Positions 32,820 through 52,202 of a stretch of DNA of 64,000 bases are shown here, piece by piece. The stretch lies in NCBI RefSeq assembly GCF_041154745.1, contig NZ_AP031573.1, positions 1,426,001 to 1,490,000 on the forward strand, given 5' to 3'. The notes beneath the pieces were generated by a model. It saw only the letters and a list, made by a program, of their open reading frames with translations, had not been told where the DNA came from and made no database searches. The stretch comes from Flavobacterium sp. CFS9. Its GTDB lineage: Bacteria; Bacteroidota; Bacteroidia; Flavobacteriales; Flavobacteriaceae. The translations under genes and the position numbers were made by a program. Position 1 is the first letter of the stretch; each line of letters opens with the position of its first letter.

Positions 32820-32862
32820 ACCGCTGATTAAAAAAATATAAAACCCTAAAAAACACTTAATT

Positions 32863-33150: not shown

Positions 33151-36100
33151 ATGAAACAAACTATTTTATTATTTATGTTCTTTTTTGCGATACAGGTCAC
33201 CCAGGCGCAAGTAAAAACCATCAAAGGAACGGTGACCGACACTAATGGCATCTCGATACCGGGAGCATCCATAAGTATAAAAGAAGAAAAAAGAGGTACC
33301 ACGACCGATTTTGACGGCAAGTTCTCTATCGACGTACAAGAAGGAAAAACACTGACGATCTCCTTTTTAGGATTAGAATCACAAAATATCCTTGTAGGCA
33401 ACTCTAACAACCTCAACATAAAAATGAAAGAAGCCGCCGCAACAGCCCTTTCCGGCGTGGTAGTTACTGCATTAGGCATAAAAAGAGAAAGAAAAGAACT
33501 GGGCTATTCTTTCCAGGATGTAAAAGGAAAAGATTTAGCAGATAATCCCACACTAAGCGTAGCACAATCTTTATACGGAAAAGTCGCAGGGGTTAACATC
33601 TCACAAACTACGGGGGGTTTTGGAAGCAGTTCCCGCATTGTCATAAGAGGAAACCGATCTATTAGCGGTGACAACCAGCCTCTATTTGTTGTAGACGGAG
33701 TTCCTTTAGGCAATACCGGACTAGCCTCGGTCACTGATTCTAAATCAGGGAGATATTCAGATGGAGTCGATAATGGGGATGGATTATCCAGCTTAAACAT
33801 GGACGACATCGAAAACATTTCTGTGCTGAAGGGGGGAGCCGCCAGTGCACTTTACGGAGAGCGCGGTGCCAACGGAGTTATCGTTATTACCACCAAAAAA
33901 GGAAAAAAAAACTCATTAAAAGCAGAATATAACGGAACAACCACTTTTGACCAAATTAACACAACCTATAACGATTTCCAGAGACAATATGGTACGGGCT
34001 CAAATGGTCTACTCCCAAATCCAAATGATATTGCGAATGCAAAAAATGCCACTACAAGTGCATGGGGACCTAAATTTGGATCGGCTGGCAATACTACAAC
34101 ACGAATTTTTGACGGCTCTTACAAACCTTATGAAAATGTAAAAAATAACATTAAAGATTTTTTCAGAACTGGAGTAACCGTTAATAATAGCTTTAGTTTA
34201 TCAGGAGGAGGAGACAATACCAGCTTTAGATTAAATTACTCCAATCTTGACGCTACTGACATCGTTCCTAAAAGCGGTTTAAAAAGAAATACTTTTACAC
34301 TGGGCGTTAATTCACAAATACAGAAACTGACCCTAGATGCAAAATTTAGCTATATCACCGAGAACACCGACAACAGACCTTCGTTATCCGACGATGCCGG
34401 CAACCTTGGATTATCTGTAGCTGCAATAGCACCAAATATTGACCAGGCCTGGTTAAAAAATTACGAAGACCCAAACGGCATATATTATCCATGGAACTCA
34501 GACCCTAACCGACTAAATCCTTATTTTGTACTAAACGAAAATAAAAACGAAACGCAAAAAAACCGAATTCTCGGAAATTTCAGCGCCACTTATGCCCTTA
34601 CCAGCTGGTTAAGCGCTACTGCAAGAGCCGGAATTGACCGCTTTACATTTGAAAGCTCCGATTTTGTTAACGCCGGAAGCACCTGGAACTCCAGACAAAA
34701 TGGTTCTCTGATTAACAGCAACACCACCTTTCAGGAATACAACGCAGAAGCCTTATTGAACGCTCAAAAATCGTTTGGAGATTTTAACGTAACCTTTGGT
34801 GTTGGAGCCAATCAAAGAAACTCTCAAAGAATAGTTTCAGGGGTAGCACTTAGCGATATGATTACAAATGGAATCAACAAACAAGCTAATTTCGTATCCA
34901 GTATTCTGAATCCAAAAACAAACGACGAAATACTCGTACGTTCTTTATACTCGTACTTAAGAACCAACTATAAAAACTATCTGTTTTTAGACTTTACCGG
35001 ACGTAACGACTGGAACTCCACTTTAGCCACAGCTGTTGGCACATCAGGCAATAATAATTACTCCTACTTTTATCCGTCAATATCTTCGAGTTTTATCTTT
35101 ACTGATGGTTTCGACATTAAAAGCGATGTACTGACTTTTGGAAAAATCCGAGCTTCATGGGCCGGTACTGCAAAAGCATTGGAAACACCTTACAATACAG
35201 CTCTTTATTATAACATACAATCCAAACCTTTATACGGCAATTCAATAGGCTCCATAACAAACAGCATCCTTCCGAACAACCACTTAAAACCAGAATTTAC
35301 TACAAGTTACGAGGTGGGAGCCGACTTAGGTTTTTTCAAAAATCGCTTACAACTTGATTTATCTTATTACTACACCCGAACTAAAAACCAGCTAATCGTA
35401 TTAAACGTTTCACAGGCCTCTGGTTTTGTAGGGATTAATGCCAATGCCGGTGCAGTTGAAAACAAAGGTTTTGAAGCCTTAATAACTGGAGGAATTTTTA
35501 GAAATCCTGATGGATTCAATTGGGACATGACTCTAAATTTTGCAAGAAATAGAAACACATTACTTGAACTAACCGATCAAACTGATCTTCAGGTAGTATC
35601 TAATGCAAGATGGGCCGGCGCACAAATTGTAGCCAAAGTAGGAGAAAGTTCTACCGAAATTTACGGAAGAAAGTTCCAGAGATCCCCAAATGGTCAAGTC
35701 ATTATCGGATCGAACGGACTTCCTCTTTTAACTGATGGTTATGAGAGTTTAGGAAGAACTGCTCCGGACTGGATTGGCGGTGTAACAAATGAATTTTCAT
35801 ACAAAGGAATTAGTCTTCGAGCTAATTTTGACATGAAATTTGGAGGCAAAGTTTATTCAATGACCAATGCTTATGCTGCTTATAACGGGCTAACAAATGA
35901 GACCTTAGAAGGAAGAGACGGGTACAACGCATGGGTTGCCGAACAGGTCGCAGCGGGAAAAACATTAAATCAAATAGGTCAGCTAACTCCAACTGCAGGT
36001 CTTATTGTTCCAGGAGTAACCGAAGTTAGAGATAATACGGGTAATGTAACCGGATATCAAAATAACACCCGATATGTAAACCCACAAACGTACTGGAGAA

Positions 36101-36387
36101 GTTTGTATGGCGACAACACTACACCGGAACCTTTTGTTTATGACGCCTCCTACGTAAAACTGAGAGAAGTCTCTATAGGTTACGATTTTCCAAAAAAATG
36201 GCTAAAAGGTACTGGATTCGAAAGATTTAAATTTTCTATTATCGGCAGAAACCTATGGAATGTATACTCTAAAGTTCCAAACATCGATCCGGAATCTACC
36301 TATACAAACGGAAATGGACAAGGTTTCGAATATGGTTCTTTACCTTACCGAAGATCTTATGGCTTTAACTTACAATTATCATTCTAA
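33151..36387 (+). CDS. SusC/RagA-type TonB-dependent outer membrane transporter, first copy
   Basis: The 1078-residue protein has a signal peptide (MKQTILLFMFFFAIQVTQAQ), a carboxypeptidase-D-like domain (about 24-105, GTVTDTNGISIPGASISIKE), and the SusC family motif VVTALGIKRERKELGYSFQD. A plug follows with RIVIRGNRSISGDNQPLFVV and ISVLKGGAASALYGERGANG, then a large barrel ending NLQLSF. With the SusD lipoprotein 18 bp downstream it should import oligosaccharides using TonB energy. Its promoter carries two operator-like sites. The substrate is inferred, from the enzymes downstream, to be amino-sugar oligomers. Confidence 0.95.
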   Translation: MKQTILLFMFFFAIQVTQAQVKTIKGTVTDTNGISIPGASISIKEEKRGTTTDFDGKFSIDVQEGKTLTISFLGLESQNILVGNSNNLNIKMKEAAATALSGVVVTALGIKRERKELGYSFQDVKGKDLADNPTLSVAQSLYGKVAGVNISQTTGGFGSSSRIVIRGNRSISGDNQPLFVVDGVPLGNTGLASVTDSKSGRYSDGVDNGDGLSSLNMDDIENISVLKGGAASALYGERGANGVIVITTKKGKKNSLKAEYNGTTTFDQINTTYNDFQRQYGTGSNGLLPNPNDIANAKNATTSAWGPKFGSAGNTTTRIFDGSYKPYENVKNNIKDFFRTGVTVNNSFSLSGGGDNTSFRLNYSNLDATDIVPKSGLKRNTFTLGVNSQIQKLTLDAKFSYITENTDNRPSLSDDAGNLGLSVAAIAPNIDQAWLKNYEDPNGIYYPWNSDPNRLNPYFVLNENKNETQKNRILGNFSATYALTSWLSATARAGIDRFTFESSDFVNAGSTWNSRQNGSLINSNTTFQEYNAEALLNAQKSFGDFNVTFGVGANQRNSQRIVSGVALSDMITNGINKQANFVSSILNPKTNDEILVRSLYSYLRTNYKNYLFLDFTGRNDWNSTLATAVGTSGNNNYSYFYPSISSSFIFTDGFDIKSDVLTFGKIRASWAGTAKALETPYNTALYYNIQSKPLYGNSIGSITNSILPNNHLKPEFTTSYEVGADLGFFKNRLQLDLSYYYTRTKNQLIVLNVSQASGFVGINANAGAVENKGFEALITGGIFRNPDGFNWDMTLNFARNRNTLLELTDQTDLQVVSNARWAGAQIVAKVGESSTEIYGRKFQRSPNGQVIIGSNGLPLLTDGYESLGRTAPDWIGGVTNEFSYKGISLRANFDMKFGGKVYSMTNAYAAYNGLTNETLEGRDGYNAWVAEQVAAGKTLNQIGQLTPTAGLIVPGVTEVRDNTGNVTGYQNNTRYVNPQTYWRSLYGDNTTPEPFVYDASYVKLREVSIGYDFPKKWLKGTGFERFKFSIIGRNLWNVYSKVPNIDPESTYTNGNGQGFEYGSLPYRRSYGFNLQLSF

Positions 36388-36405
36388 CACTCAAATTTGA
36401 TCCTA

Positions 36406-37905
36406 ATGAAAAAACATATAACACATTTAACGAACTGTATGCTGGGTGTAATTTTATTGCTTAGCACAACCAATTGCGCAGACGATGAGCTTTTTAGAGA
36501 AACCAATACCAATCCGGAATCTTTCTTAAGTGTAGCTCCTCACTTACAATTAACCGGAGTCGAGGCTGCCCTTTCCGGCGGAATCTTTGAACAGTGGAGA
36601 GCCAATCTTATATATGGAGAAGGATTTGTGCAGCATCTGGGCGCAGCATGGGCAACTACAACTTACGGCTCTTTCTACGCTGCCAGTACAGAACATCAGG
36701 GAGCACTTTGGAACGCAAATTATGGCGGAGGCTTAATACGCAATGTAGTAGATCTCACCGAAAAAACCAACGGAAAACCGGAATACAAAAATATGAATGC
36801 CTTAGCAAAAACGCTGAAGGTAATGGCTTTCCAGCGTCTCACAGATTTATATGGAGACATCCCCTACTTTGAAGCAGGTTTAGGCTATCACAAAGTAATT
36901 CTCTATCCTAAATACAACAGCCAAAAGGATATCTACACTGACTTTTTTAAACTTCTGGACGAAGCCTATAGTCAACTACAATCCGGTACCGACCCAATAA
37001 AAGGAGATATTTTTTATGCCGGCGATATCTCAAAATGGAAAAAAATGGTTAATTCATTGAGATTACGCTGTGCGATGAGGATTTCAAAAGTAGATCCTGC
37101 CCTTGCCAAAGAGCAAATTCAAAAAGCCGTTACCAATGGTATATTTACCAGCAATGATGACAATTGTTTCATGAAACACGACTCGACTCTTCCGGAAACA
37201 AATGGCGCCACCAACAACGGTAATGGACTTTCTCATGCCTTCAAAGGTAATGAATTGAACGACCGTGCTACCATCACGATACTTAATGCACTGGGAGATG
37301 ATCCGAGAAAAAAAATATGGTTCCTACCCGTAAATGGCAATTATGTTGGTATTGACCCAAACATATATGGATACGAATTCGCACCCGGAGGAGGCAATGG
37401 TCTGTCTAGAATACAACCTTACTTATACGAAAACAGTGCCCCATACCTGCACCTTACTTACTCCGAAACACAACTCCTTTTAGCAGAAGCTTCTTTCAGA
37501 AATCTATACACCGGAGACACCAAAACTCTCTACAAAAAAGGAATTGAAGCCGGAATCAGACAATGGATTATTTTTAAAGATGCCAGCATTATTGACAATG
37601 ATGCTATTACTGCCTTTTTAGCCACAAAAAACCTTACACCGGGAAAAGAACTTGAAGAAATTGCAACCCAACAATGGCTCACTTTATTCTTAAACGGAAT
37701 GGAAGCTTACAGCAATCATAGACGTGTAAATTTTCCAATTTTAATTAAAATAACAACTGTAAGATCAACAACAGACGGAATTATGCCTTCAAGATTGCCT
37801 TATCCGCCTGAAGAATCTACCGCTAACAAAGAGAACTACCTTGCCGCCAGTGCCAAATACAACAACAACAGCTGGTTCGCTAAACTATGGTGGGATGTAG
37901 ATTAA
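36406..37905 (+). CDS. SusD/RagB-type surface glycan-binding lipoprotein, first copy
   Basis: The 499-residue protein has a lipoprotein signal with lipobox LSTTNC, then the helical SusD fold with typical motifs (LKVMAFQRLTDLYGDIPYFE, KWKKMVNSLRLRCAMRISKV, YLHLTYSETQLLLAEA). It sits on SusC as a lid that captures the glycan. I start at the ATG at 36406; an upstream TTG adds only three residues. It belongs to the SusD-like/SusD-2 group that lacks the classic N-terminal TPR arrangement. A terminator-like hairpin follows. Confidence 0.94.
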   Translation: MKKHITHLTNCMLGVILLLSTTNCADDELFRETNTNPESFLSVAPHLQLTGVEAALSGGIFEQWRANLIYGEGFVQHLGAAWATTTYGSFYAASTEHQGALWNANYGGGLIRNVVDLTEKTNGKPEYKNMNALAKTLKVMAFQRLTDLYGDIPYFEAGLGYHKVILYPKYNSQKDIYTDFFKLLDEAYSQLQSGTDPIKGDIFYAGDISKWKKMVNSLRLRCAMRISKVDPALAKEQIQKAVTNGIFTSNDDNCFMKHDSTLPETNGATNNGNGLSHAFKGNELNDRATITILNALGDDPRKKIWFLPVNGNYVGIDPNIYGYEFAPGGGNGLSRIQPYLYENSAPYLHLTYSETQLLLAEASFRNLYTGDTKTLYKKGIEAGIRQWIIFKDASIIDNDAITAFLATKNLTPGKELEEIATQQWLTLFLNGMEAYSNHRRVNFPILIKITTVRSTTDGIMPSRLPYPPEESTANKENYLAASAKYNNNSWFAKLWWDVD

Positions 37906-37948
37906 ACGATTAACCCTAACCCAATACCACTCCTTTCATGTTGATCCT

Positions 37949-37995
37949 AATACCATTCGTAATTTGTATTGAATTGCGAGTGGTATTTTTTTAGA
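37949..37995 (+). terminator. Terminator after the first susCD pair
   Basis: AATACCATTCG (37949-37959) pairs with CGAGTGGTATT (37977-37987) with one G-T wobble, and T6 follows. A related AATACCACTC at 37923-37932 can also pair with GAGTGGTATT, so two alternative hairpins are possible. Confidence 0.6.
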
Positions 37996-38164
37996 CTTTT
38001 CCGATCAAAAACAGACCGAATCGCCTATTCTTACTATTCTAAAAATACGAATTTTAAGATTAAAATAAATTCTTCCCCAAAAAACTCATTCTGCAAAATT
38101 TTCTCAGAACACCCTTAGAAACCTCACTTCTTTGGGATTATAAAAACATTTCAGAAAAAAATAT

Positions 38165-38199
38165 TGCAAAAAAAATGCACTTTATGCAAAAAAAATGCA
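38165..38199. promoter_or_regulatory. Twin operator sites C and D, upstream of the second susC
   Basis: TGCAAAAAAAATGCA occurs twice, at 38165-38179 and 38185-38199, 20 bp apart. Site D ends 19 bp before the -7 box, nearly the same geometry as site B at the first susC promoter (20 bp). The pair matches sites A/B in motif, spacing and position. Confidence 0.75.
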
Positions 38200-38218
38200 A
38201 ACAAATAAAAATTATCTA

Positions 38219-38226
38219 TATATTTG
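38219..38226 (+). promoter_or_regulatory. Probable -7 box of the second susCD promoter
   Basis: TATATTTG at 38219-38226 is identical to the -7 box of the first susC promoter and is followed by the similar sequence GATCGCC (the first has GACCGCT). The ATG lies about 40 bp downstream. No TTG is present at -33; operator D occupies that place, which may mean an activator is needed. Confidence 0.6.
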
Positions 38227-38268
38227 ATCGCCAATAAAACCAAAATAAAACATGAAAACCAAAGTATT

Positions 38269-41200
38269 ATGAAAGCAAAGCTAATTTCATTAGTATTTAT
38301 TGGGGGAGTAATCTTCTCAGCAAATGCAAAAGAGGCTGCAATTAAAACGCACTTCTTTGAACAAAAAAGCAATCAGATTGAAATTTCAGGCCAAATCATT
38401 GGTCAGGACGATGGGATGCCAATTGCCGGAGCTACTATTTACGCAAAAGGCAATTCGAAAGCAGCTACTATAACCGATGAAACAGGAAAATTTAAATTAA
38501 ATGTTCCGGAAAATGAAACTCACATCATCATTTCTTACATGGGTTATACAACTTTAGAATATAAACTAGATAAGGTAACAGATGTAGTCATAAGTTTAAA
38601 ACCTGCGGAAAATGTATTGGAACAGGTTTTAGTAACTGCACTGGGAGTTAAAAAAAGTACAAAAGCAATTTCTTATGCAGTAACCGAACTTAAAGGAACT
38701 GAATTTACAAAAGCCAAAGAAACGAATATCACCAATGCCCTGGCAGGAAAAATTGCCGGTGTAAACGTGAGTGGTACTGCAACAGGTCCAACCGGATCAA
38801 CCAGAGTTGTAATTCGCGGAAACGGTTCCTTAAACGGAAATAACCAACCCATGTATGTTGTAAACGACCTTCCAATAGACAATACACAACTAAATTTACC
38901 GGGTACCGGAAATGCACCGGGATCACCAAGAATTAACGTAGACCGAGGTGATGGAACTTCTGTTATCAATCCCGATGACATCAAAAGCATCACGGTATTA
39001 AAAGGAGGGACCGCTGCCGCTCTGTATGGTGCAAATGCTGCAAACGGTGTGATCTTAATTCAAACTAAAAGAGGATCGGCTCAAAAAGGAATTGGTGCAG
39101 AATACAACACTTCCTTTACTTTTGAAACTCCGGCTATTAAACCAGACTGGCAATATGAATATGGCGCAGGAGCTTTGGGCAAAAAACCTACAACTCAAGC
39201 TGAGGCGGTAGATTATGGCCGCTGGTCATGGGGAGCAAAAATGGACGGAACAGACGTGGTTCAGTTCGACGGTGTAAAAAGACCTTACTCTCCTCAAAAA
39301 GACAACATTAAAAACTTCTACCAAACCGGAACTACTTTTATCAACTCACTTGCCTTATCAGGAGGAACCGACAAAGCATCCGGACGTCTTTCGTTTATGA
39401 ATATGGACAATCAGGGCATCGTACCTAATACTTCTTTTAATCGAAAAAGTGTCAACATTGCAAGTAATGTTAACCTGACAAACTGGTTAAAATTTGACGT
39501 TGTAGCCCAATACAATATCGACAAAACAGAGAATAGAACTACAGTATCTGATGCAGAAGCAAATCCTAACTGGGCAACTTATATGATCGCCAATACCGTC
39601 GACATCAGAAATCTTTCTCCGGGTTATGATGCAAATGGCAGAGAGGTAGCCTGGAATCCCGTTGCAGTGGCAACAAATCCCTACTTCGCTGTCAATAAAA
39701 TTAAGAACAGCGATACTAAAAACCGCTTTATCGGAATGCTAAATGTAAAAGTGAACTTTACACCTGAATTATTCCTTCAGGGAAGAATTGGGCAAGATTA
39801 TACTAATTACGATTTTTATGCGTACATTCCTAAAACAAGTTTAAACAATCCTGTTGGATACGGGCAGGGTTCAAAAGTAAAATTATCCAATTTAAACTCA
39901 GAAGCCATTCTGAACTACACTAAGAAAAACATCTACAAAGATTTCTCTTTGAACGCTTTAATTGGGGTCAATTCTCGTACCAATGTAAGAGATGAAGTTA
40001 GAATAGACGGATCTAATTTTATATTAGACGACTTCTACTCTTTAACTAATCTTGCCACTATAACCTATGCCTATCCTTACGGAAAAACAAAAACAAATTC
40101 TGTATATGCCGCAGCAGATTTAGATTACAAAAATGTGGTTTTCCTAAACTTCACAGGACGTCAGGACTGGTTTTCTACTCTTTCAAAAGACAACAATACG
40201 ATATTCTATCCATCAGTAGGTACCAGTGTTATTCTTTCAGACATCGTAAAAATGCCGGAATGGATTTCATTCAGTAAAGTAAGAGCTTCCTGGGCACAAG
40301 TGGGTGGAGCTACTCCGGATCCGTATGCTTTAAACCAATCATACTCTATGATTCAGGGCGGACACAACGGTCAATACCTACAAAGCACAACAGGTTCAAG
40401 AGTTCCAAATTCAACACTAAGTCCATTAACTTCAACAACAGTAGAAGTTGGAACAGACATGGGGTTCTTTAACAACCGCTTAAATCTTGATTTTGCCTGG
40501 TACAACAGAGAAACTACTAATGACATTGTAGAAACTACCATCTCAAATGCATCAGGAGCAAGAACCGCTTTACTGAACCTTGGAAAAATGAAAAATACCG
40601 GAGTTGAACTTTTGCTGAGCGGAAAGATCATCAACAACGATAATTTTTCATGGGAAGCCAGCATCAACGGATCTTATAACAAAAATACCGTTGAATCACT
40701 TACAGGTCAGTTAAATTCGCTTACGATGGCAACTTCTGTAAACGGATATGTTACCGTTAACAGCGACGTTGGTCGTCCTTACAGTATTATAAAAGGATAC
40801 AAACCTCTTAAAGATGCCAATGGTAACACCGTGTATAATGTAAGTGGCAATACTGCAACTGTTGCACAAGGTCCTCTTGAAGAACTAGGACAGGGTGTTC
40901 ATCCTTGGTCGGCAGGTATCAGTAATGAATTCAAATACAAATCAGTATCCTTCAGCTTTTTAATTGATGGTAAATTTGGTGGAGATTTATACTCTGGAAC
41001 AGACTTGTACGGAACCCGTATGGGATTGACCAAAATGACACTGGAAGGTCGTGAGAACGGATTACCAATTTCGGGTGTTGATACTAAAGGAAATCCTGTA
41101 AATATGGTTATTGCACCGGCAGATCTAAGAACTTATTATGACGGTTTAAGAAATATCTCTTCTTATTTTGTTTACGATGCCAGTTTCATAAAACTAAGAC

Positions 41201-41424
41201 AAGTAATTATTGGCTATCAGCTGCCAATTGAAAAATTCGGTTTTTTATCCAAACTTCAGGGAGCTTCAGTTTCTTTTATCGCAAGAAACCTGTTCATTCT
41301 TTACAAGAAGACACCAAATGTAGATCCTGAATCTATATTTAGTGCCGGAAATGCTCAGGGTATAGAACAATTTGGAGTACCTAGAACAAGAAGTTTCGGA
41401 TTAAGTTTAAATGTTAAATTTTAA
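38269..41424 (+). CDS. SusC/RagA-type TonB-dependent outer membrane transporter, second copy
   Basis: The 1051-residue protein starts at the ATG at 38269 with a signal peptide MKAKLISLVFIGGVIFSANA; the frame continues upstream to 38224 but adds no signal. It has a carboxypeptidase-D-like domain (about 33-115, ISGQIIGQDDGMPIAGATIY), the SusC motif VTALGVKKSTKAISYAVTEL, a plug with RVVIRGNGSLNGNNQPMYVV and ITVLKGGTAAALYGANAANG, and a barrel ending LSLNVKF. It is clearly distinct from the first copy in sequence, so the two pairs probably take different oligomers of one substrate class. Confidence 0.95.
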   Translation: MKAKLISLVFIGGVIFSANAKEAAIKTHFFEQKSNQIEISGQIIGQDDGMPIAGATIYAKGNSKAATITDETGKFKLNVPENETHIIISYMGYTTLEYKLDKVTDVVISLKPAENVLEQVLVTALGVKKSTKAISYAVTELKGTEFTKAKETNITNALAGKIAGVNVSGTATGPTGSTRVVIRGNGSLNGNNQPMYVVNDLPIDNTQLNLPGTGNAPGSPRINVDRGDGTSVINPDDIKSITVLKGGTAAALYGANAANGVILIQTKRGSAQKGIGAEYNTSFTFETPAIKPDWQYEYGAGALGKKPTTQAEAVDYGRWSWGAKMDGTDVVQFDGVKRPYSPQKDNIKNFYQTGTTFINSLALSGGTDKASGRLSFMNMDNQGIVPNTSFNRKSVNIASNVNLTNWLKFDVVAQYNIDKTENRTTVSDAEANPNWATYMIANTVDIRNLSPGYDANGREVAWNPVAVATNPYFAVNKIKNSDTKNRFIGMLNVKVNFTPELFLQGRIGQDYTNYDFYAYIPKTSLNNPVGYGQGSKVKLSNLNSEAILNYTKKNIYKDFSLNALIGVNSRTNVRDEVRIDGSNFILDDFYSLTNLATITYAYPYGKTKTNSVYAAADLDYKNVVFLNFTGRQDWFSTLSKDNNTIFYPSVGTSVILSDIVKMPEWISFSKVRASWAQVGGATPDPYALNQSYSMIQGGHNGQYLQSTTGSRVPNSTLSPLTSTTVEVGTDMGFFNNRLNLDFAWYNRETTNDIVETTISNASGARTALLNLGKMKNTGVELLLSGKIINNDNFSWEASINGSYNKNTVESLTGQLNSLTMATSVNGYVTVNSDVGRPYSIIKGYKPLKDANGNTVYNVSGNTATVAQGPLEELGQGVHPWSAGISNEFKYKSVSFSFLIDGKFGGDLYSGTDLYGTRMGLTKMTLEGRENGLPISGVDTKGNPVNMVIAPADLRTYYDGLRNISSYFVYDASFIKLRQVIIGYQLPIEKFGFLSKLQGASVSFIARNLFILYKKTPNVDPESIFSAGNAQGIEQFGVPRTRSFGLSLNVKF

Positions 41425-41435
41425 AGAACAAAACC

Positions 41436-42965: not shown

Positions 42966-42982
42966 TAATACAAAAAAGATAA

Positions 42983-44302
42983 ATGAGCATATTAATTCTT
43001 ACGGCATGCATTGCGTTTCTAATCGTCCAGATCGCCTGGCTTAAAATCAATCCGTTTATTGCCTTTATCATAACAGCTTTATTAGCAGGCCTTTTTTTAG
43101 GCCTGCCAATAAACACTCTGTCACAAACCGTACAAAAAGGTTTGGGCGAAATGTTAGGATCGATTACGCTGATTATTGTTTTCGGAACCTGTATCGGTAA
43201 ACTTACCGTTTCATCAGGTGCCGCCAATGTCATTGCCAAAACTGTTATGGGATGGACGGGTAAAAAATACGTTCGCCTTGGCTTAATGATTACCGGATTT
43301 ATTGTTGGGATACCTCTATTTTATAGTGTTGGTTTTGTTTTGTTAGTACCCTTAATCTTCTCAGTAGCCCATCAATTTAAGCTTTCAAAAGTATATCTCG
43401 GTATTCCAATGCTGGCGTCGCTTTCAGTAGCACACGGTTTCTTGCCCCCACATCCGTCTCCAATGGCCTTAAGCAGTATTTTTAATGCCGATCTTGGACT
43501 CGTTTTAGTTTACGGAATTATCATTGCCATACCAACCATTTTTATTGCAGGTTTACTGTTTTCGAATTTACTCAAAAACATCAAAACCGAATCCGATCAT
43601 GAAATCTTAAACGTTGAAGAAGTTGTAAACGAAGGCAAACTTCCAAGTTTTTCACTCAGTCTGTTTTCTGCTTTATTTCCGGTTTTCGGATTAACGGTGA
43701 CTTCGATATTACCAATGATTTCTAAAAATGAAACTTTAGGAGATATCTGCAAAACAATTGGAGAACCAAGCATGATCATGCTGATCTCTTTACTGATCTG
43801 TACTTATACTTTAGGCATTAGAATGAACCGCAGCATCACCTCTGTAATGGAGGATTATGCCGTTGCGATTAAAGATGTTGCCTTAATCGTTTTAATTGTT
43901 GGAGGAGCCGGCGGTCTGAAAGAAGTTATGATTGTGAGCGGTGTAAACGAAACTATCGTTACAGCTTTAACACAAATAAACATTCATCCTTACTTATTAG
44001 CATGGATGATGGCAGCGATCATTCGTGTTTGCGTAGGTTCAGCAACAGCAGCCGGATTAATGACCGCCACGGTTCTATTACCTTTATTGCAAACTGCCGG
44101 ACTTGATCCTAACTTATTAGTACTGTCAGTTGGAGCAGGAAGCTTAATGTGCTCTCATGTAAACGACCCAAGCTTCTGGATGTTCAAAGAATATTTTAAC
44201 ATCAGCCTGAAAGATACTTTCAAATCATGGACCGTTATGGAATCCTTAGTATCCGTTTTAGGAATCATTTTCGTTTTTATTTTAAACTCTATAATACATT
44301 AA
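42983..44302 (+). CDS. GntP-family inner membrane permease (sugar-acid symporter)
   Basis: The 439-residue protein has about 12 hydrophobic segments and the GntP-type motifs HGFLPPHPSP and GSATAAGLMTATVLL, plus SHVNDPSFWMFKEYFN near the C-terminus. Family members carry gluconate and related hydroxy acids by proton symport, and some carry D-serine. In this locus an amino-sugar acid such as 2-acetamido-2-deoxy-gluconate or glucosaminate is the likely cargo; this is inferred. It lies between susD and ridA with gaps of 17 and 4 bp. Confidence 0.92.
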   Translation: MSILILTACIAFLIVQIAWLKINPFIAFIITALLAGLFLGLPINTLSQTVQKGLGEMLGSITLIIVFGTCIGKLTVSSGAANVIAKTVMGWTGKKYVRLGLMITGFIVGIPLFYSVGFVLLVPLIFSVAHQFKLSKVYLGIPMLASLSVAHGFLPPHPSPMALSSIFNADLGLVLVYGIIIAIPTIFIAGLLFSNLLKNIKTESDHEILNVEEVVNEGKLPSFSLSLFSALFPVFGLTVTSILPMISKNETLGDICKTIGEPSMIMLISLLICTYTLGIRMNRSITSVMEDYAVAIKDVALIVLIVGGAGGLKEVMIVSGVNETIVTALTQINIHPYLLAWMMAAIIRVCVGSATAAGLMTATVLLPLLQTAGLDPNLLVLSVGAGSLMCSHVNDPSFWMFKEYFNISLKDTFKSWTVMESLVSVLGIIFVFILNSIIH

Positions 44303-44306
44303 TATC

Positions 44307-44774: not shown

Positions 44775-44779
44775 AAAGT

Positions 44780-44952: not shown

Positions 44953-44966
44953 AAAAAACAAAAAAT

Positions 44967-45998
44967 ATGAATACAAATACCTCACAAACAAAAATCGCAA
45001 CTTTCGGTGAATTATTACTCCGAATGAATGTTGCCAACGGAAATCGATTTACACAAACCAACGAAATAAAAGTTTACGTGGGCGGTGCCGAGGCAAATGT
45101 TTGTGTTTTACTTTCCCAACTTGGAATACCTACGGATTACATTACCCGATTACCTCAAAATGACTTAGCACAATTGGCTGTAAACGAACTTCAGAAATAC
45201 AAAGTAAATACCTCGAAATGTGTTTATGGCGGAGACCGTTTAGGTTTATATTTCGTCGAGGCCGGAAATCAAATCAGACAATCACAAGTTATTTACGACC
45301 GAAGCAATTCGTCTTTTGCGACCATACAAAAAGATCAGATTAACTGGGATCTGGCATTAGCCGATGTAACCCATTTTCATTGGTCGGGAATAAGTCCGGG
45401 AGTTTCGCATGAAGCGGCTGACGTTTGCAAAGAAGCCATTCTCGCGGCACATCAAAAAGGCCTCCCTATTTCTTCTGACTTTAACTACCGTTCCAAACTA
45501 TGGCAATACGGAAAACATCCGTCAGAAGTTATGCCTGATTTGCTTCAATACAGCACAATCACGGTAGCCGATTTAGATGCAATTGAAATTTATTTCGGAA
45601 TTAAAACCGACGCACGAGAATCGGATGCCGATCGTTTCCAAAAAACATTCGAATTGTTAAAAGCAAAAATGCCTTTTCTAAAAACACTCGCCATGAGTTT
45701 CAGAAAGTCCGACGGACTGGCGCATTTATACAAAGGATTATTGCTTCATGAAGGCAATTTCTATCAAACACCCGAACATAAAATACAGGTCGTAACCGAC
45801 CAGATAGGTTCCGGAGATGCCTTCAACGCAGGGTTATTATACGGACTGACCCATAAATTATCCGGTCAGGAATGTATCGAATGGGCAACTGCCTGTGGAG
45901 TAATCAAACAAAGTATTCACGGAGATTTTGCTATAAGCACTCCTGACGAAGTAAATCATTTTATTAAAAATGGCTCAAGTAACAGAATTAACAGATAA
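44967..45998 (+). CDS. kdgK: 2-keto-3-deoxygluconate kinase (PfkB family)
   Basis: The 343-residue ribokinase-fold enzyme has an N-terminal VYVGGAEANVCVLLSQLG (PfkB signature 1-like) and DQIGSGDAFNAGLLYGL (signature 2, with the catalytic Asp and anion-hole GSGD). Pairing with the KDPG aldolase 9 bp downstream makes KDG the likely substrate, giving KDPG. Related kinases take other sugars, so specificity rests on context. Confidence 0.88.
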   Translation: MNTNTSQTKIATFGELLLRMNVANGNRFTQTNEIKVYVGGAEANVCVLLSQLGIPTDYITRLPQNDLAQLAVNELQKYKVNTSKCVYGGDRLGLYFVEAGNQIRQSQVIYDRSNSSFATIQKDQINWDLALADVTHFHWSGISPGVSHEAADVCKEAILAAHQKGLPISSDFNYRSKLWQYGKHPSEVMPDLLQYSTITVADLDAIEIYFGIKTDARESDADRFQKTFELLKAKMPFLKTLAMSFRKSDGLAHLYKGLLLHEGNFYQTPEHKIQVVTDQIGSGDAFNAGLLYGLTHKLSGQECIEWATACGVIKQSIHGDFAISTPDEVNHFIKNGSSNRINR

Positions 45999-46007
45999 AA
46001 CAAAAAC

Positions 46008-46655
46008 ATGTACAGCATATTAAAAACGCAAGGTGTACTTCCGTTAGTGACACAAATCAACATTGAAACAGCCCAAATAGTCTTGCAATCGGCGGCTGAT
46101 GCTGGCATAAAAATTATAGAGTTTGCTGCTCGCGCAACTGATGCTAAAGAAGTTTTTAGCCAAATGATCCATTTTAAAAAAGCAAACAATTTAGATGTTA
46201 AGATAGCCGTTGGATCTATTTTAAGCGTTCAGGATGCAGAAACCTTTCATCAGTTAGGAGCCGATTGTATTGTTTGTCCACATACCGATCCGGAAATCGG
46301 AAACTACTGTTTCAAAAACAACATCTATTGGATTCCCGGAGCCGCGACCTTAAACGAAATACTTCATGCTAATAAATTAGGTGCCGAAATTGTAAAACTT
46401 TTTCCTGCCGATAAAATTGGTGGTCCCGGATATGTAAAAGCCATCAGAGCTCCTTTTCCAAACTTAAAAATAATGCCAACCGGCGGAGTAACCTTAGAAG
46501 AAAGTAATCTGAAATCATGGTTCAAATCAGGAGTGGTTTGTGTTGGAATTGGCTCTAATTTATTTACAAAAGAAATGATGCTCGATTTAAGTTATGAGCA
46601 GTCACTTCAGGCTTTTCAAAATTTAATTGAAGTCGTAAAAAAAACAAGAAACTAA
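46008..46655 (+). CDS. kdgA: 2-keto-3-deoxy-6-phosphogluconate aldolase (KDPG/KHG aldolase family)
   Basis: The 215-residue TIM-barrel class I aldolase has the Schiff-base Lys in IVKLFPADKIGGPGYVKAI, the GVLPLVTQIN N-terminal segment and the phosphate-binding MPTGGVTLEE. It splits KDPG to pyruvate and glyceraldehyde-3-phosphate. Together with kdgK it forms the lower half of the proposed amino-sugar-acid route. It is 3 bp before the PLP-enzyme gene. Confidence 0.93.
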   Translation: MYSILKTQGVLPLVTQINIETAQIVLQSAADAGIKIIEFAARATDAKEVFSQMIHFKKANNLDVKIAVGSILSVQDAETFHQLGADCIVCPHTDPEIGNYCFKNNIYWIPGAATLNEILHANKLGAEIVKLFPADKIGGPGYVKAIRAPFPNLKIMPTGGVTLEESNLKSWFKSGVVCVGIGSNLFTKEMMLDLSYEQSLQAFQNLIEVVKKTRN

Positions 46656-46658
46656 ATT

Positions 46659-47774
46659 ATGCAAAACAATTGGTGGAAAATTAGCTCCGAAATCCGTGTA
46701 GACACTCCATTTTTGGCCGTTTACGAAGACCGCATTCAGGCCAACATTGAACGCTTGATAGAAGCTGTGAACGGCAATACTCAAAAATTAAGGCCACACA
46801 TTAAAACTCACAAAATTGGAGAGATTCTGGACTTATTTAAAACCTACAACATCAACAAAGTTAAATGTGCCACCATTGCCGAAGCAGAACTTGCCGCCAT
46901 ACATGAAATTGCGGACGTACTTCTCGCCTATCAGCCTGTGGGCAATAAAAAAGAGCGATGGATTTCGTTAATTAAAAAATATCCTGCTACCGCTTTTTCT
47001 ACCATTGTTGACAATTACGAATCGGCGAAAGCATTGGATACCATTGCACATAAAAGCAATCTGAAACTTACCCTTTATTTGGATCTGAACTCCGGGATGA
47101 ACCGAACGGGAATTTCAATTTCTAAAAACTGGGAAGCTCTGATTGATGAAATTGTCAAATTAAAAAACATTCATTTTGCAGGTGTTCATCTGTATGATGG
47201 TCATCTGAAAGGGGATGTTGAACATCGAAATTCGGTCGCCTCAAATATTTTCTTTAGCATAAATGAAGAAATTGAGGCTATACAGAAAAAACTAGGCTAT
47301 GAATTAAAAATTGTAGCCGGAGGATCCAACACCTTTCCCTTCTATGCCACACAGAAAAATGTAGAATGCAGCCCCGGAACTTTTGTCTTCTGGGATTCCA
47401 ACTATCAGATCCACTTACCGGAGCAAAATTTTGAACCTGCTTTGGTGATCGTCGGAACCATTATTTCCAAACCAACCGATACTACTTTTTGTATCGACAT
47501 TGGTTACAAAGCGGTTGCTTCCGAAAATCCTATCGATAAAAGGCTTGTCATTTTAAATGACGACAACCTAATCCCGATTTCACATTCTGAGGAACATCTG
47601 ATCATCGAAAATCGCGGCAAAAATAAGTATGCGATTGGCGATATCATTTACGCACAGCCTTACCACGTTTGTCCCACTTGCGCACTGTACGATTCCGTTC
47701 AGGTTGTCAATAGCGAACATCAGATTTGTGATCAATGGCTCATTACAGCCCGCAGTAGAAAAATTAATATCTAG
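46659..47774 (+). CDS. PLP-dependent D-serine-dehydratase/D-threonine-aldolase-family enzyme, candidate D-glucosaminate deaminase
   Basis: The 371-residue fold-type III PLP enzyme has the PLP Lys in LRPHIKTHKIGEI, the SGMNRTGI segment, GVHLYDGHLKG and a C-terminal domain with YHVCPTCALYD. The His-x-Cys pair matches the zinc site of eukaryotic D-serine dehydratases, whereas D-threonine aldolases have His-x-Asp. This favours a lyase that removes water and ammonia. D-glucosaminate deamination to 2-keto-3-deoxygluconate would fit its place 3 bp after kdgA, with ridA and a gluconate-type permease upstream. D-serine or D-threonine are alternatives. Confidence 0.82.
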   Translation: MQNNWWKISSEIRVDTPFLAVYEDRIQANIERLIEAVNGNTQKLRPHIKTHKIGEILDLFKTYNINKVKCATIAEAELAAIHEIADVLLAYQPVGNKKERWISLIKKYPATAFSTIVDNYESAKALDTIAHKSNLKLTLYLDLNSGMNRTGISISKNWEALIDEIVKLKNIHFAGVHLYDGHLKGDVEHRNSVASNIFFSINEEIEAIQKKLGYELKIVAGGSNTFPFYATQKNVECSPGTFVFWDSNYQIHLPEQNFEPALVIVGTIISKPTDTTFCIDIGYKAVASENPIDKRLVILNDDNLIPISHSEEHLIIENRGKNKYAIGDIIYAQPYHVCPTCALYDSVQVVNSEHQICDQWLITARSRKINI

Positions 47775-47865
47775 AAATAGAGGAAAGAGAATAGAATAAA
47801 GATTATAGACTTTAAAGAAAACCTCTGAATCTTTGTCTCTTTGAACCTTAGAACCTTAAAAAACT

Positions 47866-48936
47866 ATGTTTATAATAGACGCCCATTTAGACCTTAGCAT
47901 GAATGCGATGGAATGGAACAGAGACCTGCGAAACGACGTTGCCACTTTACGCCATTTAGAAAAAGGCATGACAGACAAACCGGATCGCGAACGTGCCACT
48001 GTTTCTTTTCCTGATTTGCGAAAAGGAAATATCGGAATTGTAGTTGCCACTCAAATTGCAAGATTTGTAAAACCCGACAGCCTTATTCCCGGCTGGAATT
48101 CTCCTGAGCAGGCATGGGCACAAACACAAGGTCAGCTTGCCTGGTACAAAGCCATGGAAGAAGCCGGAGAAATAACCCCCATTACAGACAAAAAATCATT
48201 ACTGAAACAGATTGATTTATGGAATGACGGAACCCCAAATGATAAAAAACCAATTGGCTACATTTTAAGTTTAGAAGGAGCCGATTCTATTATTGATATC
48301 TCCTATTTAGAAAAAGCATATCAGTATGGCTTGCGCGCTATCGGACCTGCACATTACGGTCCCGGACGATACGCAAACGGAACGGACGCTACCGGAAAAA
48401 TGCAGCAAAACGGACTTGATTTACTCAAAGAAATGGAACGTCTGAACATTATTCTGGACGCCACTCATTTGTGTGATGATGCATTCTGGCAGGCATTAGA
48501 TCATTACAGTGGTCCTGTTTGGGCAAGTCATAACAACTGCCGAAGTCTGGTAGATCACAACCGTCAATACAGCGACGAAATGATTAAAGCTCTAATTTCA
48601 AGAGGAGCAGTTATTGGAGGTGCTTTAGATGCCTGGATGCTGGTTCCGGATTGGGAAAGAGGAGTTTCAACTCCACAAGGAACAAATTGCAATCTTGAAA
48701 CTGTTTTCCAACACATGGATCACATTTGTCAATTGTCCGGAAACGCCAATCATATAGGCGTAGGTTCTGATCTTGATGGTGCTTTTGGTACAGAGCAATC
48801 TCCCTACGATTTGAACACCATTGCCGATTTGCAGAAACTAGTTCTGATTTTTAAAAATCATGGATATTCTGACGAAGATTTAAATAAGATCTTTCATCAA
48901 AACTGGATCAACTTTTTACTAAAAAACTGGGATTAA
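47866..48936 (+). CDS. M19-family metallo-amidohydrolase (membrane dipeptidase-like); candidate N-acetyl-amino-sugar-acid deacetylase
   Basis: The 356-residue protein has the full dinuclear zinc site of the M19 family: His-x-Asp in IIDAHLDLSMNA, bridging Glu in LSLEGADSI, His in DATHLCDDAFW, His in VWASHNNCRSL and Asp in GVGSDLDGAFG. M19 enzymes cut amide bonds of dipeptides and also beta-lactams. No signal peptide is present, so it acts in the cytoplasm. In this operon an amide hydrolysis that removes acetate from an imported N-acetyl-amino-sugar acid makes more sense than dipeptide cleavage, but that is inference. It overlaps the convergent deoR gene by 4 bp. Confidence 0.85.
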   Translation: MFIIDAHLDLSMNAMEWNRDLRNDVATLRHLEKGMTDKPDRERATVSFPDLRKGNIGIVVATQIARFVKPDSLIPGWNSPEQAWAQTQGQLAWYKAMEEAGEITPITDKKSLLKQIDLWNDGTPNDKKPIGYILSLEGADSIIDISYLEKAYQYGLRAIGPAHYGPGRYANGTDATGKMQQNGLDLLKEMERLNIILDATHLCDDAFWQALDHYSGPVWASHNNCRSLVDHNRQYSDEMIKALISRGAVIGGALDAWMLVPDWERGVSTPQGTNCNLETVFQHMDHICQLSGNANHIGVGSDLDGAFGTEQSPYDLNTIADLQKLVLIFKNHGYSDEDLNKIFHQNWINFLLKNWD

Positions 48937-49709
48937 ACAAAAACTAAACTGGGAACTGCCTTCTTATACGCCTGTAATTTTTCGTGATCCGGATCCACTT
49001 CGGTCACCACATAATCAACCTCGGATAAGTTGGCAATTTTCATCTTTAGGACCGTATCCAGTTTTTCAGAAATCGTAAGAATGGCTGTTTTTTCGGAAGC
49101 CTGAATCATTGCTTTTTTAACCTGAACCGTTTCCCAGTCAGAATCCGAAAAACCGCCTTCGATGTCCAAGGCATTGGTTCCTAATATTAACAAATCAACT
49201 TTAATATTAGCCAGCTGATTATAGACATCGCCGCTCACACACATTTGGCTGTACGACGAAATACTGCCGCCAATCATGATAATTTTAACATTGGGTTTGT
49301 CCAAAAGTTCAACCGCCGATAAAACAGTAACTGTAAAAATGGTTAGATTTAAGGTGTCGGGAATCAATCGGATAAACTCTCTGATGGTTGTTCCGCCACC
49401 AAGCAATAAAACCATACCATCACGAAGTAAACCTAAAGTTTTTTGTGCAATGGTTTGTTTTGCTTCACCTGCATAAGTTTGATTGGAAGAAGAATGGTGA
49501 TAAGCTTTTGTCATCGCACCACCTTTTACTTTAATCAATAAAGACTCTGATTCAAGTTCATTAATATCTCGTCTCACCGTATCTTCTGAAACAAATAATT
49601 TAGTCGAAAGGGTTTCAAAACTTACGCGGGTGTGCAGGTTAATTTCTTTTAAAATAAGATTTTTACGTTCTTCCTTAGTGTAATTAACCAATTCATTATC
49701 ATTATTCAT
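48933..49709 (-). CDS. DeoR/GlpR-family transcriptional regulator
   Basis: The 258-residue protein has an N-terminal DeoR helix-turn-helix (about 10-70: VSFETLSTKLFVSEDTVRRD, INELESESLL) and a C-terminal sugar-phosphate-binding DeoRC domain (LLGGGTTIREFIRLIP, VDLLILGTNALDIEGG). Such regulators usually repress sugar catabolic operons and are released by a phosphorylated intermediate; KDPG would be a natural effector here, by inference. It is divergent from the GH20 gene. An operator-like site (49748-49762) lies in its own promoter, which suggests autoregulation. Confidence 0.92.
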   Translation of the reverse strand: MNNDNELVNYTKEERKNLILKEINLHTRVSFETLSTKLFVSEDTVRRDINELESESLLIKVKGGAMTKAYHHSSSNQTYAGEAKQTIAQKTLGLLRDGMVLLLGGGTTIREFIRLIPDTLNLTIFTVTVLSAVELLDKPNVKIIMIGGSISSYSQMCVSGDVYNQLANIKVDLLILGTNALDIEGGFSDSDWETVQVKKAMIQASEKTAILTISEKLDTVLKMKIANLSEVDYVVTEVDPDHEKLQAYKKAVPSLVFV

Positions 49710-49730
49710 CCAAGTTCAATTTTAGTAAAG

Positions 49731-49762
49731 CAAATGTAAACAATTAATGCAATATTATTGCG
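49731..49762 (-). promoter_or_regulatory. deoR promoter with operator site E
   Basis: A minus-strand TACATTTG -7 box (plus-strand CAAATGTA, 49731-49738) lies about 22 bp before the deoR start. Site E, TGCAATATTATTGCG (49748-49762), sits 9 bp upstream of the box, between -7 and -33, where bound protein would block polymerase. Confidence 0.65.
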
Positions 49763-49836
49763 AAACAAATTAGAATACAATGTAATAAAAAAGTTAATTC
49801 ATCTATTATAAAGACTTTTAAAGACAAATAGGCCCT

Positions 49837-49875
49837 GCAAAAAAAATGCAAACCACCCAACAAACCTTACATTTG
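49837..49875 (+). promoter_or_regulatory. GH20 gene promoter with operator site F
   Basis: TACATTTG at 49868-49875 is a -7 box about 23 bp before the GH20 ATG. Site F, TGCAAAAAAAATGCA (49837-49851), is identical to sites C and D and ends 16 bp upstream of the box, over the -33 region. Confidence 0.68.
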
Positions 49876-49898
49876 TTTAACTAACCCAAAAAGCAACC

Positions 49899-52202
49899 AT
49901 GCGAAAAAATATTCTTCTTCTTTTCATATTTTGTTATTCTTTTGGAAGTGCCCAAACTTCCTCACCTAGTAATTCGATCATTCCGGCTCCCAATTTCTAC
50001 AAAGCCACCGGAGACAGTATTCGTTTAAACGGACAGATTAAAGTCCTTTTTGAGAAAAATAAATTCAGTGCTAAAGAACAAAAAACAGCCAATCTGTTGG
50101 AGTCTGCTATAAATTCTAACGCCTCAAAAAGGAAAAGCAATGTAGATGTTTTATTCATCACACAAAACCCAGCTTCCTCTCTAAAAAAGGAAGGGTATAA
50201 AATTACCATCACTCCAAAAAAAATAACCGTTACCGGAAGTGAAGAGGGACTATTTTATGGCGTTCAAAGTTTATTGCAAATGCTTCCGAACAAACCTAAA
50301 AGTCAGGAAATAAAACTTCCTTGTGTTACGATAGAAGACGAACCAAGATACGATTACCGAGGCCTGCATTTAGACGTTTGTCGTCACTTTTTTAGCGTTG
50401 ATGTTATAAAAGATTTTATCGCTCAGATGTCCAGCTATAAATTAAATAATTTCCATTGGCATCTCACTGACGATCAGGGATGGAGAATTGAAATCAAAAA
50501 ATATCCAAAACTAACCGAAATAGGCTCCAAAAGAGCACAGACTCTCGTAGGAAACAAGTTCGAAAGATTTCCGTATTTTTTTGACGGAAATCCTTACGGA
50601 GGTTTTTACACACAGGAAGAAATCAAAGATGTTGTGAAATTTGCAGAAGAACATTATGTCAATGTAATCCCTGAAATAGAAATGCCCGGACATGCCACTG
50701 CAGCTGTTACTGCTTACCCGAACCTGTCTTGTTTTCCGGATCGTCCTTATAAAGTGATTGAATACTGGGGAGTGTTTGAAGATATCTTCTGTGCAGGAAA
50801 AGAAGAAACTTTTACTTTTCTCGAAGATGTTTTAACCGAAGTCATGGCATTATTCCCCAGCAAATACATTCATATTGGTGGTGACGAATGCCCGAAAGCC
50901 AGATGGAAAGAATGCCCAAACTGTCAAAAAAAGATCAAAGAACTAGGATTGAAAAACGAGCATGAATTACAAACGTATCTTACCACCAGAATAGAAAAAT
51001 TCCTGAACAACAATGGGAGACAAATTCTCGGTTGGGACGAAATGCTTGAAGGCGGATTAGCTCCAAACGCGGCCGTTATGTCCTGGCGTGGAGAATCTGG
51101 CGGAATTGCAGCTGCCAAACAAAAACATTTCGTAATCATGAATCCGGAACAGGTTTTATATCTCGATTATAACCAAGCCTATTCCCCAAACGAACCTTTA
51201 ACTGTGGGGCGATTAGTTACTGTAGAAAAAATTTACAACTACAACCCCACTCCTGTTGACAGTTTGACGATCGACGAACAAAAATACATTATGGGCGTTC
51301 AGTCTAATCTTTGGTCGGAATACTTAACGAGTCCTGCCAAATTAAACTATCAGCTTTATCCCAGAATGTTTGCTTTGGCAGAAACTGCCTGGACTCACCC
51401 TCAGCAAAAGAATTACAATAATTTTGTCCTGAACCGCATGCCCCATCATTTAGAAAAACTGGAATTACAAAAGAGACTATACAAAGTCCCGACACCGTTT
51501 GGAGCAAATGAAACGGCTCTAATTGCCTCCGAATATGTACTGGATCTAAAACCTACCATTAAAAATGGTCAAATTTTCTACACGATTGATGGCTATAATC
51601 CTGATGAAACCGCAAACCTTTATGAAAAACCTGTCACGATACACATTCCAAAAGGAGAATTCAGAACCATAAAAACAGTTCAGATTAGCCCTGGCGGCAG
51701 AAAAAGTTCTATCAACAAGATAATAATCCGAAATCCGGATTTAAAACCTGCTTTAGCGGTAAAACCAACCAAACAAGGTTTAAAATACGAATACTTTATC
51801 GGAACCTTATTTCAGCAGGTTCAGGATTTAGAATTAGTAAAACCGGTGAATTCGGGGATCTTTGAAGGGACTGTGAGCAGTGAAAAATGGAAAACAAAAA
51901 AAGAGCGCTATATTGGCCTAAAATTCGACGGATATATCTACATACCCGAAACCGGAAATTATACCTTTTCAACGCTCTCAGACGACGGATCTAAGCTTTT
52001 CATCGACAATGAGCTAATTGTAAACAACGATGGGATTCATTGGCTCAATGAGGCCTATGGAGCTGTAAAACTCGAAAAGGGATTTCATAAGTTCAACATC
52101 AGCTATTTTGATCAGATAGGCGGAACCACCTTAAACTGTTTCATTCAGCCCGAAGGAAAAGAAAAACAGGAAATAAGCGCTTCGCAATTGTTTTACGAAT
52201 AA
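49899..52202 (+). CDS. GH20 beta-N-acetylhexosaminidase with C-terminal PA14 domain
   Basis: The 767-residue secreted enzyme has a signal peptide (ILLLFIFCYSFGSAQ), a GH20b N-terminal domain (about 30-145), the GH20 catalytic barrel (about 150-500) with the Asp-Glu catalytic pair in YIHIGGDECPKARW, an Fn3/chitobiase-C-like segment (about 530-620) and a C-terminal PA14 domain (about 630-765, IYIPETGNYTFSTLSDDGSK). It removes terminal GlcNAc or GalNAc from chitin oligomers or glycans; PA14 adds carbohydrate binding. It is transcribed away from deoR and shares the locus operator motif. A location in the periplasm or at the surface is likely. Confidence 0.95.
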   Translation: MRKNILLLFIFCYSFGSAQTSSPSNSIIPAPNFYKATGDSIRLNGQIKVLFEKNKFSAKEQKTANLLESAINSNASKRKSNVDVLFITQNPASSLKKEGYKITITPKKITVTGSEEGLFYGVQSLLQMLPNKPKSQEIKLPCVTIEDEPRYDYRGLHLDVCRHFFSVDVIKDFIAQMSSYKLNNFHWHLTDDQGWRIEIKKYPKLTEIGSKRAQTLVGNKFERFPYFFDGNPYGGFYTQEEIKDVVKFAEEHYVNVIPEIEMPGHATAAVTAYPNLSCFPDRPYKVIEYWGVFEDIFCAGKEETFTFLEDVLTEVMALFPSKYIHIGGDECPKARWKECPNCQKKIKELGLKNEHELQTYLTTRIEKFLNNNGRQILGWDEMLEGGLAPNAAVMSWRGESGGIAAAKQKHFVIMNPEQVLYLDYNQAYSPNEPLTVGRLVTVEKIYNYNPTPVDSLTIDEQKYIMGVQSNLWSEYLTSPAKLNYQLYPRMFALAETAWTHPQQKNYNNFVLNRMPHHLEKLELQKRLYKVPTPFGANETALIASEYVLDLKPTIKNGQIFYTIDGYNPDETANLYEKPVTIHIPKGEFRTIKTVQISPGGRKSSINKIIIRNPDLKPALAVKPTKQGLKYEYFIGTLFQQVQDLELVKPVNSGIFEGTVSSEKWKTKKERYIGLKFDGYIYIPETGNYTFSTLSDDGSKLFIDNELIVNNDGIHWLNEAYGAVKLEKGFHKFNISYFDQIGGTTLNCFIQPEGKEKQEISASQLFYE

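Follow-up and report, generated by a model that had tools for sequence, protein, structure and literature searches.

The closest described counterpart of the locus considered here is the ong cluster of Pseudoalteromonas prydzensis ACAM 620. According to its description (PMC9537276), this cluster encodes a TonB-dependent receptor, the glycoside hydrolase (GH) family 20 enzyme OngA, the SSS-family carrier OngIT, the D-aminoacylase-like OngB, the pyridoxal phosphate (PLP) enzyme OngC, the Rid protein OngD, the 2-keto-3-deoxygluconate (KDG) kinase KdgK and a MurR/RpiR repressor. In the same text, OngC is reported to accept D-serine and D-threonine as well, the complete pathway is known from Gammaproteobacteria and one Betaproteobacterium, and some ong clusters (Vibrio, Klebsiella and Serratia) include a 2-keto-3-deoxy-6-phosphogluconate (KDPG) aldolase. 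OngB was assigned to a new de-N-acetylase family, sister to the D-aminoacylases, in a further report (PMC12017989). Here, we describe a twelve-gene locus from Flavobacterium sp. CFS9, lying in an analysed stretch of 64 kb (the window, C1:1426001-1490000 of a one-contig genome of 5.37 Mb). We give an even chance to the reading that it encodes the DeoR-controlled, Sus-type uptake and catabolism of an amino-sugar acid capped with N-acetylhexosamine (HexNAc), most likely scavenged C1-oxidised chitin fragments ending in 2-acetamido-2-deoxy-gluconate (GlcNAc1A).

Like the ong cluster, the locus brings together an outer-membrane receptor and an inner-membrane carrier, a GH20, an amidohydrolase and a fold-III PLP deaminase, a Rid protein with a KDG kinase, and a regulator. 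A preliminary description of this DNA, made from the sequence alone, had pointed to a route of this shape in marine Pseudoalteromonas, and both the layout and the proposed order of chemistry are alike in the ong route (PMC9537276). The GH20, Rid protein and KDG kinase of ong were matched in the window locus by family, and the PLP enzyme, being of the same fold family as OngC and displaying the HxC motif, may correspond to it. Yet an M19 metallohydrolase stands where OngB is found, GntP replaces the SSS carrier and DeoR the MurR/RpiR repressor, SusC/SusD (SusCD) pairs take the place of the lone receptor, no AA10 lytic polysaccharide monooxygenase (LPMO) is present, and the host belongs to the Bacteroidota instead of the Gamma- or Betaproteobacteria. 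Since LPMO, OngB and the SSS/RpiR pair are all missing, the locus is a parallel or variant route and not an ong cluster.

No OngB-type (Amidohydro_3) enzyme was found in the locus, and of seven Amidohydro_3 matches elsewhere in the genome the four frames checked were other or unspecific amidohydrolases, a 1000-amino-acid frame having been left out. Ten hand-picked neighbours from 17 loci with the PLP gene only and two further PLP copies included no D-aminoacylase that could replace the absent M19. PLP matches in Vibrio plasmid records did not lead to ong either, only the PLP enzyme fitting that cluster among ten frames of L166 scanned with Pfam. In the literature, judged by titles and the starts of abstracts and with most subscription papers outside the coverage, no counterpart of the route based on M19 or located in Bacteroidota was recognised.

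Within the same genus, the chitin utilisation locus (ChiUL) of F. johnsoniae, likewise of Sus type, has two SusC/D pairs and one GH20; it also makes use of GH18 chitinases and NagB, both absent from the window locus (PMC5127042). GH18 genes do occur elsewhere in the CFS9 genome. Two of them, at C1:157985-162379, lie beside another GH20 gene (at 163541), and this group is probably the ChiUL of this genome. The known route for 6-phosphorylated amino-sugar acids also deaminates its substrate to a keto-deoxy acid, which is then split by KDPG aldolase; there, however, the phosphorylated acid is deaminated, whereas the window kinase would act after deamination.

Each of the twelve genes named in the preliminary description was recovered as an intact open frame, and the families agreed by Pfam and NCBIfam (Table 1). 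For the protein called RidA, assignment to the Rid type stood (PF14588, 56.4 bits), but the classical PF01042 profile remained below its cut-off (22.1 against 27.3 bits). GntP scored 460.5 bits with TIGR00791 (cut-off 292.75), gluconate symporters being closest. The kinase found its best solved-structure match in a 2-keto-3-deoxygluconate kinase (2afb, E 9.4e-58) and lay far under its NCBIfam cut-offs (best 331.9 against 700, for a fusion-protein model); the aldolase was closest to 8di1, 'KDPG and KHG aldolase' (E 1.1e-40), and its scores with the two NCBIfam models that fitted best fell short of their cut-offs (215 against 275 and 149.9 against 156.05). Export-signal-like starts were seen by eye in GH20, SusC and SusD and not in M19, PLP, Rid, kinase or aldolase. 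The locus displayed the features of a Sus-type polysaccharide utilisation locus, with tandem SusC/SusD, a glycoside hydrolase and a regulator.

The PLP enzyme, which shares 95% identity with a protein attributed to Flavobacterium tructae, displayed the HxC metal motif of D-serine dehydratases and not the HxD of aldolases. Both H336 and C338 were invariant in 22 of 22 relatives; in printed alignments of solved relatives, HxC occurred in 3anu and HxD in 6qkb, 4v15, 7dib and 7yqa. Motif, gene order and solved-structure matches together bear out the earlier view of an elimination-type PLP enzyme beside a KDG kinase and a KDPG aldolase. The neighbouring M19 protein retained the profile, fold and metal-site residues of peptidase family M19. 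It was 16-25% identical to the solved chains of M19 membrane dipeptidases (3fdg, 3ly0, Sco3058, Lmo2462 and human DPEP1), and, unlike these, Bacteroidota M19 proteins of this type are linked to Rid and PLP genes. We infer that it acts as an N-acyl-aldonate deacylase; the deacetylase here is probably of another kind than the marine-bacterial one.

In the proposed pathway, SusCD would take in an oligosaccharide from which GH20 would trim HexNAc in the periplasm, and GntP would move the freed N-acetyl-aldonate to the cytoplasm. The M19 enzyme would strip the N-acyl group from this substrate, chemically an N-acyl D-amino acid, and the PLP enzyme would form 2-keto-3-deoxygluconate by eliminating first water and then ammonia, with the Rid protein disposing of the imine. 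The kinase and the aldolase would finally yield pyruvate and glyceraldehyde-3-phosphate. The most likely substrate is GlcNAc1A, which the cell may scavenge.

Conservation was followed in two sets of relatives. The named loci are the best 80 of at least 584 relatives detected, among 596 stretches, in species genomes scanned with an M19 alignment (20 from Flavobacterium and 60 from outside it), and the family sample comprises 299 Flavobacteriaceae genomes, with limits of E 1e-60 for M19 and E 1e-40 for PLP. Gene maps outside the window were drawn from similarity to window proteins and from Pfam/NCBIfam scans of hand-picked neighbours, absence meaning absence within the stretch examined. By title, 79 of the 80 named loci belong to Bacteroidota and one to a metagenome bin titled Williamsia. 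Rid was present in 77 of them, PLP in 59, GntP in 46, GH20 in 30 (L163 having a further match at 21%), DeoR in 26, KdgK in 21 and the aldolase KdgA in 19. The series SusC2-SusD2-GntP-RidA-KdgK-KdgA-PLP-M19-DeoR-GH20 was complete in 16 of the 20 Flavobacterium loci; L099 lacked SusC2/SusD2 only, and L098, L100 and L101 lacked both this pair and KdgK/KdgA. F. johnsoniae strain CI04 is among the bearers of this locus (L090). SusC1/SusD1 could not be retained as a fixed part, SusD1 relatives being patchy across 19 Flavobacterium genomes: one genome had a relative at 73% identity, 12 had relatives at 45-49%, and six had no match at the limit used.

Outside Flavobacterium, relatives of SusC2 and SusD2 (at least 38% identity) occurred in 14 of 60 loci. 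The pairing of GH20 with SusCD was upheld there, GH20 being present in 10 of these 14 and, save for the weak L163 match, in none of the 46 loci without SusCD. Three Pedobacter genomes displayed the system in two unlinked halves: SusC2-SusD2-RidA-M19 (L107 and L108) or RidA-M19 (L106), and KdgK-PLP-DeoR-GH20-GH20-GntP (L188-L190, with RidA added in L190). KdgK or KdgA adjoined the module in these Pedobacter loci (L188-L190) and in L067, L114, L126, L149 and L162, and genomes with no KDG kinase at the locus had a 34-43% homologue elsewhere in nine of nine cases, with no operator of the type described below in the stretches examined. In the family sample, M19 was found in 44 and PLP in 62 of 299 genomes, and all 44 M19 genomes had PLP (Fisher p 1.6e-38, relatedness uncorrected). 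GntP, Rid, PLP and M19 stood together in 27 of 40 family-sample loci, and where M19 had no adjacent PLP gene, one occurred elsewhere in 13 of 15 genomes.

A link between the locus genes was observed at the level of their promoters. Alignment of DeoR-GH20 intergenic regions from Flavobacterium relatives yielded a motif of TGCA half-sites around an AT-rich centre. The window contained four exact TGCA-W7-TGCA copies against 0.05 expected, and none of 100 shuffles reached four. Each copy lies in the promoter of SusC1, SusC2 or DeoR/GH20; this count is after the fact since the motif was read from these same promoters. For the same reason, its placement in relatives is the more independent support. 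A scan with TGCR-W7-YGCA found the motif no more than 350 bp ahead of a locus gene in every one of the 20 named Flavobacterium loci, with 42 promoter sites in 16,980 bp against two in the rest of 420 kb, and none for the reversed control. In loci without SusC2/SusD2 (L098-L101 and L041), the operator sits before GntP. It was also present in both unlinked Pedobacter halves, which ties M19 to the KDG kinase and GH20 genes even where they are apart. The view that the locus is one functional unit gains from an operator common to its promoters and kept in relatives, and the genes apparently form one regulon, as judged from these sites.

The whole genome contained eight exact copies (three for the reversed control). 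The four outside the window were situated twice inside open frames and twice outside them, the latter with no evident sugar genes alongside by eye. The form with one mismatch was uninformative (27 found against 24 expected). A TAnnTTTG box, which we take to be the Bacteroidota -7 element, starts 32-35 bp past the first base of the final operator-like copy at SusC1, SusC2 and GH20, a layout that would suit a repressor; from its position and co-conservation, we infer DeoR to be the operator binder and repressor. The SusC1 box and the start codon are 338 bp apart, leaving a long leader in which no Rfam match was found (window 32820-33150).

Table 1. Genes and promoter elements of the locus, in window positions
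Feature	Position	Strand	Basis or remark
Operator before SusC1	32755..32791		exact TGCA-W7-TGCA at 32755-32769, imperfect copy from 32777
-7-like box TATATTTG before SusC1	32812		
SusC1, TonB-dependent transporter	33151..36387	+	Pfam
SusD1, SusD-like lipoprotein	36397..37905	+	Pfam; probable start ATG 36406
Tandem operator before SusC2	38165..38199		copies at 38165-38179 and 38185-38199
-7-like box TATATTTG before SusC2	38219		
SusC2	38224..41424	+	Pfam; probable start 38269, because the TTG at 38224 overlaps the promoter-like box
SusD2	41436..42965	+	Pfam
GntP-family sugar-acid symporter	42983..44302	+	Pfam, NCBIfam
Rid-type protein, PF14588	44307..44774	+	Pfam
PfkB kinase, KDG-kinase-like	44967..45998	+	Pfam, best solved match 2afb
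KDPG/KHG aldolase family	46008..46655	+	Pfam, NCBIfam, solved match 8di1
Fold-III PLP enzyme, H336-x-C338, dehydratase type	46659..47774	+	Pfam, motif alignment
M19 metallohydrolase, putative N-acyl-aldonate deacylase	47866..48936	+	
DeoR-family regulator, putative locus repressor	48933..49709	-	
-7-like box of DeoR	49738	-	
Imperfect operator copy TGCAATATTATTGCG next to DeoR start	49748..49762		
Exact operator before GH20	49836..49850		between DeoR and GH20
-7-like box TACATTTG before GH20	49868		
GH20 beta-hexosaminidase with PA14 domain	49899..52202	+	export-signal-like start by eye

Elsewhere in the window, a DUF805b RNA (RF02914) was matched at positions 62862-62894 (+); it scored 38 bits, the gathering score being 35.6. 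Among the relatives, several other neighbourhoods were recorded. Mucilaginibacter loci (e.g. L123, L128, L132, L138 and L148) displayed Rid-PLP-M19 without GntP, next to genes for an unknown family of 368 amino acids, a GH63-like protein, an amino-acid permease and the ethanolamine ammonia-lyase EutB; in these loci a different substrate may be handled by the core module. In L076, L077, L078 and L079, PLP was accompanied by an M19 of greater distance (50-53%). These loci also had an AraC regulator and genes for a class-III aminotransferase and for a protein resembling 3-hydroxyacyl-CoA dehydrogenase, and in two of them a ceramidase-like gene came next. A plasmid record of the gut bacterium Parabacteroides distasonis (L168, NZ_OY725779.1) contained GntP-DUF4833-RidA-PLP-M19, after which came genes for a sigma factor and FecR and one SusCD pair.

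Several results weigh against a pathway for scavenged oxidised chitin, some of them concerning the source of the acid. The AA10 LPMO domain (PF03067) was absent from the CFS9 genome itself, from all 44 M19-carrying family genomes and from the 29 named genomes searched, so that the LPMO-oxidised chitin of the preliminary description could not be traced to an enzyme of the host. The acid must come from scavenging or from some other means of production. In addition, GH29-like genes in nine loci (L111, L116, L118, L119, L125, L131, L153, L159 and L162) suggest a decorated or different glycan; PF01120 was found in the one member scanned (L162), and at least five of these genes lie inside the SusCD-GH20-GntP-M19 run. 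The GH20 tree, with its long branches, does not clearly separate the locus enzymes from another GH20 of the genome. The missing LPMO and the GH29-like genes also favour an explanation in which ordinary or fucosylated HexNAc glycans are imported, GH20 frees HexNAc, a periplasmic dehydrogenase of the host oxidises it and GntP imports the resulting acid. Such an oxidase may exist in L116, where a GMC oxidoreductase (weakly pyranose-oxidase-like) and a gluconate 2-dehydrogenase subunit 3 follow GH20 (L116:13805-16370) as a possible periplasmic sugar oxidase; frames of similar size were seen at L131:13854-16426. Yet only a single genus yielded this pair, no such oxidase belongs to the window locus and none was evident by eye at the four other operator sites, and we hold an acid that is self-made or comes from another glycan to be unlikely. 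AA10 domains over the Pfam cut-off did occur in five of the 299 Flavobacteriaceae genomes (L081-L085; G177, G096, G036, G188 and G138), none of which carries M19. They run against the statement, in the 2016 F. johnsoniae chitin paper, that Bacteroidetes had no known LPMO at the time (PMC5127042).

The remaining objections concern the partners of the core module. M19 occurred without SusCD, GH20, KdgK and KdgA in the stretch for 44 of the 60 non-Flavobacterium named loci, and 37 of 40 family-sample loci had no detected GH20, KdgK or KdgA (SusCD being outside that count). The AT-spacer motif was found at a locus promoter once in the other 56 named loci (Chitinophaga, L144) and in none of ten further PLP loci, which means that those lineages use another sequence or none. 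Moreover, 18 of the 62 family genomes with PLP lacked M19 at the limit used, which fits D-amino-acid use too; in 17 of these 18 (fragmentary G221 being left out), GntP was detected in four loci and Rid in five, while L237 and L241 displayed a weaker M19 match under the limit. The missing glycan and KDG genes and the loci with PLP only would suit a scavenging system in which GntP imports a D-amino-acid derivative (D-serine is carried in this way by DsdX, a member of the same family), M19 cleaves either a dipeptide of the Xaa-D-amino-acid type or an N-acyl-D-amino acid, the PLP enzyme deaminates D-serine or D-threonine, and the sugar genes are a separate matter. The aminotransferase, ceramidase-like and ethanolamine-lyase neighbours of L076-L079 and Mucilaginibacter, which are not glycan genes, and the activity of OngC on both D-amino acids (PMC9537276) point the same way. 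However, D-serine use needs no KDG kinase, and one operator joins M19, PLP, KDG kinase, GH20, SusCD and GntP in Flavobacterium and Pedobacter; D-amino-acid scavenging is a real rival, though an unlikely one for this locus. Plain gluconate or uronate catabolism, in which GntP would import a gluconate-type acid for the kinase and aldolase with M19 and PLP as passengers, agrees with the gluconate symporters closest to GntP and with the use of KDG kinase and KDPG aldolase for alginate in Flavobacterium (PMC5334617). It is very improbable, since no sugar-acid dehydratase or uronate enzyme was found among the locus genes, M19 and PLP lie inside the gene run, and M19 was never found without PLP in the 299 genomes.

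Uptake and catabolism of a HexNAc-capped amino-sugar acid can be extended, more tentatively and at somewhat less than even probability, to the phylum. Bacteroidota would possess their own amino-sugar-acid pathway parallel to ong, in which M19 was recruited as a new N-acetyl-aldonate deacetylase together with Rid and an HxC PLP lyase. Flavobacterium, Pedobacter and some Chitinophagaceae and Cytophagales would have coupled this module to SusCD and GH20, and it would operate LPMO-free on acids released by others or made by own periplasmic oxidases.

The shared operator makes the claim testable through one regulator, one DNA motif and three enzymes. If true, the use of oxidised chitin would extend beyond LPMO bacteria, a second form with another deacetylase existing in a major polysaccharide-degrading phylum of soil and water, and M19 'dipeptidases' would acquire a new function in many Bacteroidota genomes. 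It would also imply cross-feeding, in which Bacteroidota without LPMOs gather the acids set free by LPMO users.

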